Assembly: GCA_019233695.1 (NCBI GenBank)
Contig: JAFAME010000137.1
Coordinates: forward strand, 1 to 34,432
DNA: 34,432 bases
Origin: Methylobacteriaceae bacterium
GTDB taxonomy: Bacteria; Pseudomonadota; Alphaproteobacteria; Rhizobiales; Beijerinckiaceae
Reading direction: 5' to 3'
Positions 30,889 through 34,432 of the stretch are shown here, piece by piece. A program made the translations under genes and the position numbers. Position 1 is the first letter of the stretch, and each line of letters starts with the position of its first letter. The notes under the pieces were generated by a model. It saw nothing but the letters and a program-made list of their open reading frames with translations, had not been told where the DNA came from and did no database searches.

Positions 30889-31923
30889 TCAGCGCCGTTG
30901 CGCCAGCAATAGGTGGCTGTCACCGAACTCGTGCCAAAGGTAGTTCCCGCGCAACGCCTCCGCGTAGGCCTCCGACACCAAGGACCGCCCGGCGATGGCG
31001 TTCAGCATCGAGATGTGGCTTGCCTTCGGTTCGTGGAAGCCGGTGATCAGGCCGTCGACGGCGTTGACCGTGCTGTTTGACCGGATATGGCGCCGCGTGA
31101 AGCCGCGCACCGCTTGGATGCTCGTTCCGTCCCAGGCAGATTCAAGCGCGCGCACGACGGTCGTCCCCACCGCAATGACCGGCCGCCGCTGCCGGCGCGC
31201 CGCGCCGATGGCTTGCGCCGTCGCCGGCGGCACGACGAACGGCTCGGCATAGAGCGGCTGGTCCTCGCGCTCGACCTCCAGGCTCGAAACGCCGGTGTGG
31301 AGCTCGATCTCGAAGACGCCGATATCGCGGCGCGCCAGATCGTGGAGGGTCCGTTGTGTGAAGGGACGCGCGGCCGAAGGCATTTCGGCGCTGCCAGGTG
31401 CCTTGGCGAAGATCGTCTGATAGGCGCCGAGGTCAGGGTAGGGCGGCTCGATGTAGGCATAGCGGATCGGCTCGCCATGCCGCGCCATTGCCGTGTCGAT
31501 GTCGCCTGAAAACCGCACGAACCACAGGCGCGGCAGGCCAGGGTATCGGGCGATGAGGCGCGCCGGGACGCCGGCCGCCTCGATGACATCGCCTGCATCG
31601 AGCGGCAGGGGACCAGGTCGGCCGGGGGCCCAGCGCGGCTCGGCAAGCCACAGGCCGGGCCCATAGCGGGTTGACAGATTGAGGGTGAAGGCGAGCTTTG
31701 CCGCCTCGGCCGGCAGGCTTGCGGGCAACGTGGCGCTGCGGTTGACGACGACAAGCGATCCTGGCTCGAGGAAGCGCGGAAGCTCGTGAAAGCGGCCATG
31801 AACATGCCCGGCGCGGCTGCTCACCAGCAGACGCACCTCGTCGCGCGCGAGGCCGCGCGCTTCCGCCGGACCCGTCGCGACCGGGATTGCGGGGGCGTCG
31901 AGCACAAGGGGTTGGGCGTTCAC
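30889..31923 (-). CDS. Divergent QueA-like protein (SAM:tRNA ribosyltransferase-isomerase family)
   Basis: A 344-residue protein of the QueA fold and length, from a GTG at 31923 that overlaps the SDR stop (GTGA). Family landmarks are RGLARDEVRLLV, LEPGSLVVVNRSATLPASLPA, IEPPYPDLGAYQTIFA, FEIELHTGVSSLEVE, RPVIAVGTTVVRALESAWDG, VDGLITGFHEPKASHISMLNAIAG and YLWHEFGDSHLLL. Several differ from canonical QueA as I recall it: NDTRVIPARL has become NRSATLPASL, LHVGLGTFxPV has become LHTGVSSLEVE, and YRFFSxGDAMLIL has become YLWHEFGDSHLLL. True QueA transfers the ribosyl part of SAM to preQ1 in tRNA. This looks like the paralogous subgroup I associate with actinobacteria, whose substrate is not established, so I do not assign the queA symbol. 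Confidence 0.78.
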   Translation of the reverse strand: MNAQPLVLDAPAIPVATGPAEARGLARDEVRLLVSSRAGHVHGRFHELPRFLEPGSLVVVNRSATLPASLPAEAAKLAFTLNLSTRYGPGLWLAEPRWAPGRPGPLPLDAGDVIEAAGVPARLIARYPGLPRLWFVRFSGDIDTAMARHGEPIRYAYIEPPYPDLGAYQTIFAKAPGSAEMPSAARPFTQRTLHDLARRDIGVFEIELHTGVSSLEVEREDQPLYAEPFVVPPATAQAIGAARRQRRPVIAVGTTVVRALESAWDGTSIQAVRGFTRRHIRSNSTVNAVDGLITGFHEPKASHISMLNAIAGRSLVSEAYAEALRGNYLWHEFGDSHLLLAQRR

Positions 31924-32639
31924 GCGGCTGCCTCCCAGACCTCGCCCTGGGCGCGGAAGCGACGGCCGTTGATGCCCTCGTGGGGCTGGCCAAGCAGCCA
32001 GGCCCAGAACGGCAAGGTGGCCTCTGGCGGCGGCCGATCGGAAATGTCCTGCCCCGGGAAGGCCGCCTGATGCATGGCGGTGCGCATGTCGCCCGGATCG
32101 ACGCTCACCACGGCGACTTTGGCCTCGGCCAATTCCTTGGCGAGCGTAAGGGAGACGAGGTCGAGGGCCGCCTTGCTGGCGCCGTAGCCGCCCCAGCCGG
32201 GATAGCCGCCGATCGCCGCATCGCTCGACAGATTGACGATCAGCCCCTGAGTGCCGGAAAGGAGCGGCAGGCACACCTGCGCCAGCGCAAGCGGTGCGAC
32301 AACATTGGTGCGCAACACTGCCTCGAAATCGGCGAGCGAGTATTCGGCAAGGGAGGGCATCGGCGAGGGGCCGAGCGCGCTCGCGTTGTTGATGAGCAGG
32401 TTGAGGCGGCCGAGGCTCCAGGCCGCCTCGACCAGGCGAGCGCGATGGGCGGCATCGACCACGTCGCCCGCAAGAGCGTGAACGGAGACGCCGATCTCAC
32501 GGATGCTCTCGGCGACGCTCGCCAGTTTCTCGGCACCGCGGGCCGTGAGCACCAGATCGTAGTCGAGCCGCCCCAGAAATCGGGCAAGTGCGGCGCCGAG
32601 CCCGCGGCTCGCACCGGTCACGAGTGCAACTCGTCGCAT
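31920..32639 (-). CDS. SDR-family NAD(P)-dependent oxidoreductase
   Basis: A 239-residue classical short-chain dehydrogenase. The cofactor motif is TGASRGLG (8-15), followed by NNAS (84-87), an active-site Ser in LSSD (138-139) and YGASK (Y152, K156). The AVVSVDPGDMRTAMHQ segment after the active site and the C-terminal PFWAWLLGQPHEGINGRRFRAQGEVWEA are features of a group often annotated as an oxidoreductase beside QueA-like genes. The ATG at 32639 starts the Rossmann strand correctly; the frame continues to 32840 only through repeat DNA. Its stop overlaps the GTG of the QueA-like gene, so the two products are made together. Confidence 0.9.
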   Translation of the reverse strand: MRRVALVTGASRGLGAALARFLGRLDYDLVLTARGAEKLASVAESIREIGVSVHALAGDVVDAAHRARLVEAAWSLGRLNLLINNASALGPSPMPSLAEYSLADFEAVLRTNVVAPLALAQVCLPLLSGTQGLIVNLSSDAAIGGYPGWGGYGASKAALDLVSLTLAKELAEAKVAVVSVDPGDMRTAMHQAAFPGQDISDRPPPEATLPFWAWLLGQPHEGINGRRFRAQGEVWEAAA

Positions 32640-32768
32640 TTTTGGGTCCTCATGCGTCGCGGATGCGAAATGGGTCCGCCGCGCAGAGATGGCCCGGGGG
32701 CACGCGGCCCGCATCGCGCCTGCGGCCAGGGCGGCACCTGCCCTTGCGTACAGGCCGGCGGGCGCCAC

Positions 32769-32812
32769 CCCCTCTCCCCGGCATGGCGGGGAGAGGGCAG
32801 GGGTGAGGGGCC
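32769..32812 (-). repeat. 44-bp palindromic repeat, left member of an inverted pair
   Basis: CCCCTCTCCCCGGCATGGCG and the following GGGAGAGGGCAGGGGTGAGGGGCC form a hairpin with a GTGAGGGG extension. Reverse-complemented, it matches the repeat at 32887-32930 at nearly every position. This is the widespread proteobacterial CCCTCACCC...CTCTCCCC...GGGGAGAGGG intergenic family. Confidence 0.88.
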
Positions 32813-32886
32813 AAGCGACTGGCCACGATGGCCGCCGCACCTTTTTCTTTCGCTCGAAGGGCGATCGAGGTTCGGGCCAATCGCCA

Positions 32887-32930
32887 GGCCCCTCACCCTA
32901 ACCCTCTCCCCGCCATGGCGGGGAGAGGGG
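32887..32930 (+). repeat. 44-bp palindromic repeat, right member of an inverted pair
   Basis: GGCCCCTCACCCTAACC then CTCTCCCCGCCATGGCGGGG and AGAGGGG. An inner stem of about 11 bp (CCCTCTCCCCGCC with its complement) closes over ATG. Together with 32769-32812 and the 74-base spacer it can form one long hairpin, the arrangement called a REPIN. It begins 6 bases past the stop of the NarL-type regulator gene and could aid its transcript ending. Confidence 0.88.
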
Positions 32931-32936
32931 ATGCCC

Positions 32937-33560
32937 TCACAGCATCCCGCGCTCGCGCGCGGCGGCTGCTGCTTGCGTGCGGTTGGCGACGCCGAGCTTG
33001 CTCAACAGCGAGCTCACGTGGAACTTGGCCGTCCGTTCGGTGCAGCCGAGCTCGCGCGCGATCTGCTTGTTGGGTAGGCCCCGGGCGAGGAGTGCCAGCA
33101 CCTGCCGCTCGCGCGCGGTGAGCGCCGTCGCCTCCTCGCGGACGCGGCGGATCAGCTTTGCCGCGATGACCGGCTCGACGAGCGATTGGCCGGCATGGAC
33201 GGCCCGGATCGCCCGGAACACCTGGTCGCGCTCCGTCCCCTTGAGGAGATACCCCTGGGCGCCCGCCTGCAGCGCGCGCAGGATCTGATCGTCTCGATCG
33301 AAGGCGGTGAAGACGATCACGCGAGCCGTCGGCTGCTCGGTACGCAGCGCGGCGGTGACCGCGATGCCGTCGACCTCCGGCATTTCGATATCGAGGAGCA
33401 CGACGTCCGGCCGCAGCGCCTGGGCAAGACGAAGCGCCTCGACCCCGCCACCGACTGCGCCGGCGACCGCAAAGTCGGGTTGCGTGGCGAGCATCGCGGC
33501 AAGGCCGTCGCGCACCACGGGGTGATCATCGACAATGAGAATGCGGATCGGCTCGCTCAT
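32937..33560 (-). CDS. NarL/LuxR-family response regulator
   Basis: A 207-residue regulator. The receiver has D11/D12 (LIVDDHPVVRDGL), phosphoacceptor D57 (VVLLDIEMPEVDG), T85 and K107 (YLLKGTE). The LuxR-type helix-turn-helix at about 143-203 reads LTARERQVLALLARGLPNKQIARELGCTERTAKFHVSSLLSKLGVANRTQA. Its ATG overlaps the stop of the kinase gene before it (ATGA), so the two are a pair. The regulon is unknown. Confidence 0.93.
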   Translation of the reverse strand: MSEPIRILIVDDHPVVRDGLAAMLATQPDFAVAGAVGGGVEALRLAQALRPDVVLLDIEMPEVDGIAVTAALRTEQPTARVIVFTAFDRDDQILRALQAGAQGYLLKGTERDQVFRAIRAVHAGQSLVEPVIAAKLIRRVREEATALTARERQVLALLARGLPNKQIARELGCTERTAKFHVSSLLSKLGVANRTQAAAAARERGML

Positions 33561-34432
33561 GCGCCGAGCGTCCCGGTGGTGAGCGGGACGGCGGCGGCCA
33601 CCCGCGTTCCGGTGCCGATGGCGCTTGAGACCTCGAGCGTTCCGCCGATGAGCCGCGCACGCTCGCGCAGGCCGACGAGGCCGAAGCGGCCGGGCGCGGG
33701 GATGTCGGCTGCAAACCCGCTCCCATCGTCCTCGACGACGAGAGTGACCCCATCGGGCCGAAAGGTGAGTTGCAGCAGGACGCAGCGCGGCCCGCCATGG
33801 CGCAAGGCGTTAGCGAGCGCCTCCTGCGCAATGCGAAAGAGGCCGGCCTCGATATGCGGCGGCAGGGCGCGGTCGTTGCCGACGATCTCGGCCTTCACCT
33901 TGACCGGCGAGCTCCTCTCTCGCTCGGCAAGCGCTGCGACCGCCTGGCCGAGGGTTCGTCCTTCGAGCGGCGCCGCGCGCAGATCAAGGACGGAGCGGCG
34001 TACTTCGTCGAGACTCTGGCGGGTCAGGCGCAGCGCCTCGGCGGCCTCGGCGCGAATGCTGTCGCGGGACGCCTCGGCGCTCAGCAGGGCATCGACGGTG
34101 TCGAGCCGCAACGCCACCGCGCTCAGGCCCTGAGCCACGGTGTCGTGGATCTCGCGCGCCAGCCGGTTGCGCTCCTCGATGGCGCCGGCCTGAAGGCTGC
34201 CCGCATAGAGGCGCGAGCGCTCGACGGCGACGCCCAGCATGTCGCCGATGACGCGCATCAGGCGCAACTCCGCCGCCGACAATTCGCGCCAGGCAGCGCT
34301 GGCGACGTTCAATACGCCGAGGCAGCGGCCCTGGAAGGAGATCGGCGTGCTGGCGTGAAAGCGCAGGCCCTTGGCGTCCTCGCCAGTGAGCCATTTCAAT
34401 CGCGAACATGTGAGGACGTTGACACCCGCTGC
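33557..34432 (-). CDS. GAF/HisKA_3 sensor histidine kinase, 5' end outside the window
   Basis: A partial NarX/DegS-type kinase. The frame is open through base 34432 (codons A-A-G-V-N-V-L-T-C-S-R-L-K), so the apparent TTG start at 34399 is not the real one. The visible part, about 291 residues, has the end of a GAF domain (GLRFHASTPISFQGRCLGVLNVAS), a coiled linker, the HisKA_3 H-box EERNRLAREIHDTVAQGLSAVALRLD, then the ATPase with RIAQEALANALRHGG, VEDDGSGF and FGLVGLRERARLIGG. Cytoplasmic sensing through GAF is likely; any upstream membrane or PAS domain is off the window. Its partner regulator overlaps its stop. Confidence 0.92.
   Translation of the reverse strand, partial: AAGVNVLTCSRLKWLTGEDAKGLRFHASTPISFQGRCLGVLNVASAAWRELSAAELRLMRVIGDMLGVAVERSRLYAGSLQAGAIEERNRLAREIHDTVAQGLSAVALRLDTVDALLSAEASRDSIRAEAAEALRLTRQSLDEVRRSVLDLRAAPLEGRTLGQAVAALAERERSSPVKVKAEIVGNDRALPPHIEAGLFRIAQEALANALRHGGPRCVLLQLTFRPDGVTLVVEDDGSGFAADIPAPGRFGLVGLRERARLIGGTLEVSSAIGTGTRVAAAVPLTTGTLGA

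Follow-up and report, generated by a model that had tools for sequence, protein, structure and literature searches.

What does a second member of the QueA family do in a bacterium that carries queA elsewhere in its genome, and what does its tight attachment to an oxidoreductase gene say about its substrate? The question arises at the end of contig JAFAME010000137.1 of a Methylobacteriaceae genome (GCA_019233695.1, the host below), of which positions 1 to 34,432 were analysed and are called the window here. An earlier note, made from the sequence alone, had described a QueA-like paralogue with altered motifs that shares a GTGA with an oxidoreductase gene, and that overlap is present between the stop of a short-chain dehydrogenase/reductase (SDR) gene and the start of the QueA-like gene. 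The genes and the overlap are:

30889..31923, minus strand: QueA-like protein (PF02547), 344 aa, GTG start; belongs to group A of the SDR-associated clade described below
31920..31923, minus strand: GTGA overlap, comprising the TGA stop of the SDR gene and the GTG start of the QueA-like gene
31920..32639, minus strand: classical SDR oxidoreductase, 239 aa, ATG start; motifs TGxxxGxG and YxxxK read from the sequence
32937..33560, minus strand: NarL/LuxR-type response regulator, 297 bases upstream of the pair
33557..34432, minus strand: GAF-HisKA_3 sensor kinase, its 5' part cut by the contig end at 34432 and its sensory half missing

The SDR and the QueA-like protein are probably translationally coupled through the GTGA. 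In the gap between the regulator and SDR genes (32640-32936), palindromic sequences rich in G+C and resembling each other lie near 32765-32810 and 32885-32930, possibly a repeat element or a terminator.

The host genome has two PF02547 matches. One is the window gene (222 bits); the other, at 405 bits, is a canonical queA directly followed by tgt on another contig. A third contig has queG (440 bits). The host thus has queA, tgt and queG without counting the window gene, as the earlier note had proposed to check, and the absence of another queA, which would have spoken against a paralogue, was not what we found. The paralogue occurs in six genomes of the family sample, each of which also carries canonical queA and tgt. 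For the family we therefore reject the idea that it took the place of a lost queA (6/6 holders keep the canonical gene). The G+C and GC3 of the QueA-like gene (0.69 and 0.82) are similar to those of the host's canonical queA (0.70 and 0.85), so that composition is uninformative on transfer. The note's observation that no other queuosine gene is near agrees with our scan of the window, in which none was recognised among the ORFs covered, namely 10 larger ones, the sensor kinase, the response regulator and a PAS kinase.

Membership of the window protein in the QueA family is clear: it matches PF02547 along its length with 222.8 bits (gathering score 25), and by sequence it matches the QueA structures 1wdi, 1vky and 1yy3. 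It nevertheless fell short of the cut-offs of the three NCBIfam QueA equivalog models that it matches, scoring 157.4 bits where 324 are required, 116.5 where 267.45 are required and 79.2 where 588 are required. Like canonical QueA (PF02547, TIGR00113) it has a similar length, a full-length alignment and shared core residues; unlike canonical QueA it lies below the equivalog cut-offs, is 24-34% identical to the 32 canonical rows compared, falls in a separate clade, is coupled to an SDR and has altered blocks. These are:

31714..31743, minus strand: NRSATLPASL (residues 61-70), canonical NDTRVIPARL
31453..31467, minus strand: IRYAY (residues 153-157), canonical PLPPY; the final Y is retained in group A
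31360..31380, minus strand: PSAARPF (residues 182-188), canonical PTAGLHF
31270..31302, minus strand: LHTGVSSLEVE (residues 208-218), canonical LHVGxGTF block
30913..30936, minus strand: WHEFGDSH (residues 330-337), canonical FYSYGDA

The three changed blocks named in the earlier note (NRSATLPASL, LHTGVSSLEVE and WHEFGDSH) were thus all found, and the host's own canonical QueA has the standard NDTRVIPARL, LHVGAGTF and FYSYGDA at the corresponding places.

We compared residues among 32 canonical rows and 13 rows of the SDR-associated clade (3 of group A, 10 of group B), adding the four rows of a further group C (17 A, B and C rows) for positions 180 and 332. Fourteen columns are kept in all canonical, A and B rows, namely N61, G150, P182, A184, G211, E227, G253, T254, R258, E261, H297, A309, G334 and D335 in window numbering; A16 is kept as well, at a column where the B rows are unreliable. 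Several positions nearly invariant in canonical QueA are changed throughout A and B: PLPP of PLPPY, H184 of PTAGLHF, H223 and H226 (the H-x-M-H before E227 of the window protein), N299, L307 and S336, in numbers of the E. coli row. Single letters apart, the canonical motifs LPPY, PTAGLHF, LHVGxGTF, HxMHxE and F(Y/F)SYGDA are altered in 13/13 A and B rows. Conversely, Y155, G295, H303 and the H331 and E332 of WHEFGDSH are invariant in those 13 rows and not in canonical QueA, a descriptive list since the same rows defined it. E180 and E332 are common to groups A, B and C (17/17 rows), whereas 31/32 canonical rows have A and S instead. We take this pattern to mean that the core for handling SAM is retained and that the acceptor site is new. 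The two QueA structures cited in the accessible part of a review (PMC10491745) are without bound substrates, and the conserved core is therefore not assignable to SAM binding.

A tree of 52 rows was built from group A (window, G833 and Nonomuraea gerenzanensis), group B (four family genomes and six Rhizobium), the 32 canonical rows, two Bacteroidales second copies, the four C rows and one Salmonella plasmid homologue. Groups A and B stand together on one side of a branch with support 100/97, outside canonical QueA; support is moderate for A itself (92/74) and 100/100 for B. The canonical rows and the two Bacteroidales second copies group together at 99/98, and the four C rows and the Salmonella homologue fall between A+B and the canonical side. 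Long branches make the exact position of group B and of some C rows less certain. AU tests rejected uniting A with the 17 alphaproteobacterial canonical rows (p-AU 1.6e-5) and a grouping of A with all canonical rows that leaves B out (p-AU 3.3e-4). Placement inside canonical QueA, named in advance as an outcome against the paralogue, is thus contradicted by both tree and tests. A recent duplication of the host queA is ruled out by the same AU tests.

Some other non-canonical homologues deserve mention. (i) The C rows are 25-31% identical to the window protein (4 rows, including S. medicae). The plasmid homologues among them, from Sinorhizobium pRmeGR4a, Geobacillus pGeo12a and Streptococcus salivarius pSaLI10, resemble A and B in being non-canonical, in having no tgt annotated beside them and in E180 and E332; they differ from the window protein in lying outside A+B and in having no SDR annotated, but PqqD, thymidylate-synthase-like, decarboxylase or radical SAM neighbours. 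Each sits in a plasmid gene cluster (S. meliloti GR4 pRmeGR4a, L037 7959-14408; pGeo12a, L089 6701-16755; pSaLI10, L091 6437-13393) with varying sets of PqqD, thymidylate-synthase-like, diaminopimelate-decarboxylase-like, phosphotransferase, CYTH, NUDIX, radical SAM and CPBP genes. From their gene content these look like uncharacterised biosynthetic clusters using a QueA-type enzyme. (ii) The homologue on a Salmonella IncHI2 plasmid (L090 5767-9521) is likewise beside an oxidoreductase, along with a MarR-type regulator, but the oxidoreductase is FAD-dependent, RidA is present, no SDR is annotated, and the protein is 23% identical to the window protein and on a long branch; megablast gave no match to it in the E. 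coli genome collection. (iii) Prevotella and Bacteroides have second, longer QueA-family copies (L092 5980-7254 and L098 2965-4185), which the tree places on a long branch on the side of canonical QueA.

The attachment to an SDR gene is a property of the whole A+B clade. An SDR lies directly upstream with an in-frame ATGA or GTGA (RTGA) overlap in all 18 clade members read (13/13, then 5/5 later copies that were put in group B by their 61-80% identity to the R. jaguaris protein rather than by tree), and all 18 QueA-like copies have open full-length frames. At canonical queA, 0/55 loci (54 distinct genes, with flanks of at most 1.5 kb in nearly all) had a match to the module SDRs; with 18/18 on one side and 0/55 on the other, the pairing is more than chance. 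The window SDR has an adh_short domain (149.3 bits) and both classical-SDR motifs. Its best PDB matches by sequence are the classical SDRs 3i1j and YciK, with which it shares the family match and NADP(H)-type motifs; unlike these, the module SDRs form a separate clade in a comparison of 42 SDRs, in which all 13 are united at 100/98 and the remaining 29, also from the host, stand apart. The SDR tree mirrors the QueA-like tree in its A/B split and in placing G027 first in B; below that point the two trees branch differently within B, at weakly supported forks. Judging from these trees and overlaps, this is an old two-gene module whose genes share a long common inheritance in two phyla.

Regulatory neighbours are less constant. 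G833 repeats the window order kinase, regulator, SDR and QueA-like gene with 59-66% identity (regulator 62%, kinase 59%), and the response regulator is probably part of the module. A sensor kinase and regulator adjoin 3/3 group A copies, but the Nonomuraea pair is divergent and 35-42% identical, and since genes of this type are common its position may be coincidental. The GAF domain of the G833 kinase has a CYC...C pattern; the window copy is cut before that point. In group B the neighbour is SoxR, which adjoins 11/15 copies (9/10 first read, 2/5 later) and is absent beside the Rhizobium bangladeshense copy and in three genomes of one genus, in two of which the next upstream ORF resembles, by eye, DNA polymerase IV. 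SoxR has no match in the window and is beside 0/3 group A copies, so that the SoxR neighbour suggests redox regulation for group B only.

Two single occurrences were also seen around the module. In G833 the QueA-like gene is immediately followed by one for a B3/4-domain protein (L074 6648-7397), found in that one genome; the B3/4 domain is related to a domain of phenylalanyl-tRNA synthetase, and this neighbour is a possible link to tRNA. In G795 a macro-domain protein is convergent on the QueA-like gene (L071 4609-5145). No transporter, tailoring or resistance genes common to the neighbourhoods read were seen by eye.

A paralogue-only profile, built from five paralogues, separates cleanly from canonical QueA. 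In the family sample the scores have two peaks: 6/248 genomes (G000, G027, G795, G957, G820 and G833) score 354-574 bits, and the other matches listed at E <= 1e-45 score at most 175, among them the canonical copies of G000 and G027. Under stricter limits, strong matches elsewhere came from 1/385 class, 1/398 phylum and 6/397 order genomes; the window's own genome is counted in every sample, that of the family included, the samples overlap, and scoring was limited to the top 5-8 candidates of each genome. The earlier impression that the subgroup is rare in proteobacteria is borne out by these counts. Among plasmids, the window protein matches 86 records of the collection, a count that takes in canonical QueA; 32 of them are Rhizobium, of which six were read. 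The best match there is Nonomuraea gerenzanensis at 47.5%, the sole actinobacterial clade member compared. Against its identity of about 47%, group B reaches 30-33% and the canonical rows 24-34%, and transfer from actinobacteria, at which the earlier note had hinted, is possible. A scan of the genome contig collection with the single window protein gave one distant, canonical-type QueA. We discount a phage or viral origin: one scan of viral contigs yielded no relative; 18 phage records match, and the ten listed, at 27-33% identity, are no closer to the window protein than canonical QueA is.

Nonomuraea also bears on the substrate. Its 11.85-Mb record has one QueA-family place, whether the window protein or canonical QueA is the query, and a canonical QueA was found with neither query. 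Tgt of Nonomuraea was absent among the matches listed for an alphaproteobacterial Tgt query (60 of 71 records) and among those listed for a Nocardia Tgt query (20 of 69, led by three other actinobacterial Tgts at 66-70%, and, evenly spread, 60 of 67). Genus counts give five of the seven remaining records of the 67 to Enterobacter, Paracoccus, Acinetobacter, Providencia and Proteus; the other two are presumably Monoglobus and Collinsella, which had strong Tgt matches with the alphaproteobacterial query. If Tgt is missing, tRNA would not carry preQ1, and the group A enzyme of Nonomuraea should therefore have another substrate. This argument comes from one actinobacterial genome, and with it preQ1-tRNA is an unlikely substrate. 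The earlier note had thought a substrate other than preQ1-tRNA possible; the gene's presence in Nonomuraea, where Tgt and canonical QueA were not found among the matches listed, argues indirectly for that suggestion. A tRNA substrate in the six family holders remains compatible with the data because all six have tgt.

Our main reading builds on the following results: the module exists, it is conserved in two phyla, it stands apart from canonical QueA, and it occurs in a genome in which no Tgt was found. We propose, with a probability of about 0.55, that the two genes form a small enzyme module for the response to stress or xenobiotics, in which QueA-type SAM chemistry would be applied to an acceptor other than preQ1-tRNA, together with an SDR step. 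For QueA itself, the accessible part of the review describes a proposed course in which adenine is lost from SAM, an amine adds to the vinyl sulfonium, the epoxy-cyclopentane closes and methionine is lost (PMC10491745). In the module, redox stress might induce the genes; the QueA-like protein would then remove adenine from SAM, an amine of the acceptor would attack the resulting vinyl sulfonium, and the ring would close to an epoxy-cyclopentane as methionine leaves. The rearranged SAM ribose would thus be attached to an acceptor other than preQ1 in tRNA; the likeliest candidate is a small molecule with an amine group. The SDR would be translated from the shared mRNA in coupling with the QueA-like protein, and would use NADP(H) to act on the acceptor ahead of the transfer or on the product afterwards. 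Here we infer that the SAM chemistry is kept and that the SDR acts on the same compound as the QueA-like protein. A bolder version, in which the rearranged ribose (epoxy- or hydroxy-cyclopentane) and the NADP(H) step act on a small, redox-active amine, for instance an antibiotic or a toxin of the quinone type, and the pair is a redox-sensor-switched, two-gene detoxification module shared by alphaproteobacteria and actinobacteria, is speculative and we offer it tentatively.

The nearest departure from this reading is a second QueA acting on preQ1-tRNA or on another modified tRNA base during redox stress, where the SDR would work on the added ring, for example in place of QueG. The QueA family match with its many kept core residues, the tgt of the six family holders and the B3/4-domain neighbour would all suit it, and the accessible text of PMC9508795 links queuosine loss to oxidative stress in E. 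coli. Yet the blocks that are invariant in canonical QueA are replaced, the host already has canonical QueA and QueG, the B3/4 neighbour is in one genome only, and Nonomuraea has the module where Tgt and canonical QueA were not found among the matches listed; we consider this explanation rather unlikely. Alternatively, the module might serve the biosynthesis of a small specialised metabolite, like the group C plasmid clusters, and not defence or stress. The E180 and E332 shared by A, B and C against the A and S of canonical rows point that way, as do the PqqD-like, thymidylate-synthase-like, decarboxylase, radical SAM or CPBP genes that accompany the C homologues in varying sets. Just two genes are constant in A and B, however, and no shared transporter, tailoring or resistance genes were seen by eye, so that we give biosynthesis still less credence. 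The loss of several canonical invariant residues could also mean that catalysis is gone and that the protein is an inactive or regulatory relative, perhaps an SDR partner or a SAM sensor; this we regard as improbable in the face of fourteen columns invariant across canonical, A and B rows, full-length open frames in 18 copies and long co-inheritance with the SDR.

The two-gene module seems to be new to the literature: among the open-licence papers listed in our searches, none described it or a QueA paralogue with another function. The accessible portions of PMC8552645, checked for SoxR beside such genes, and of PMC1282579, checked for QueA paralogues, hold nothing on the module, and in that of PMC11760712 queA and an SDR are named in one figure legend. 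Public annotation calls the clade members S-adenosylmethionine:tRNA ribosyltransferase-isomerase, a label that is probably misleading for these proteins.

To our knowledge, QueA is the only well-known enzyme that transfers the ribose of SAM, and the clade may extend its chemistry to other substrates. How QueA binds SAM or tRNA is still open, according to the accessible part of the review (PMC10491745). A clade with a kept core and changed blocks could help to separate the residues of SAM chemistry from those of tRNA recognition.
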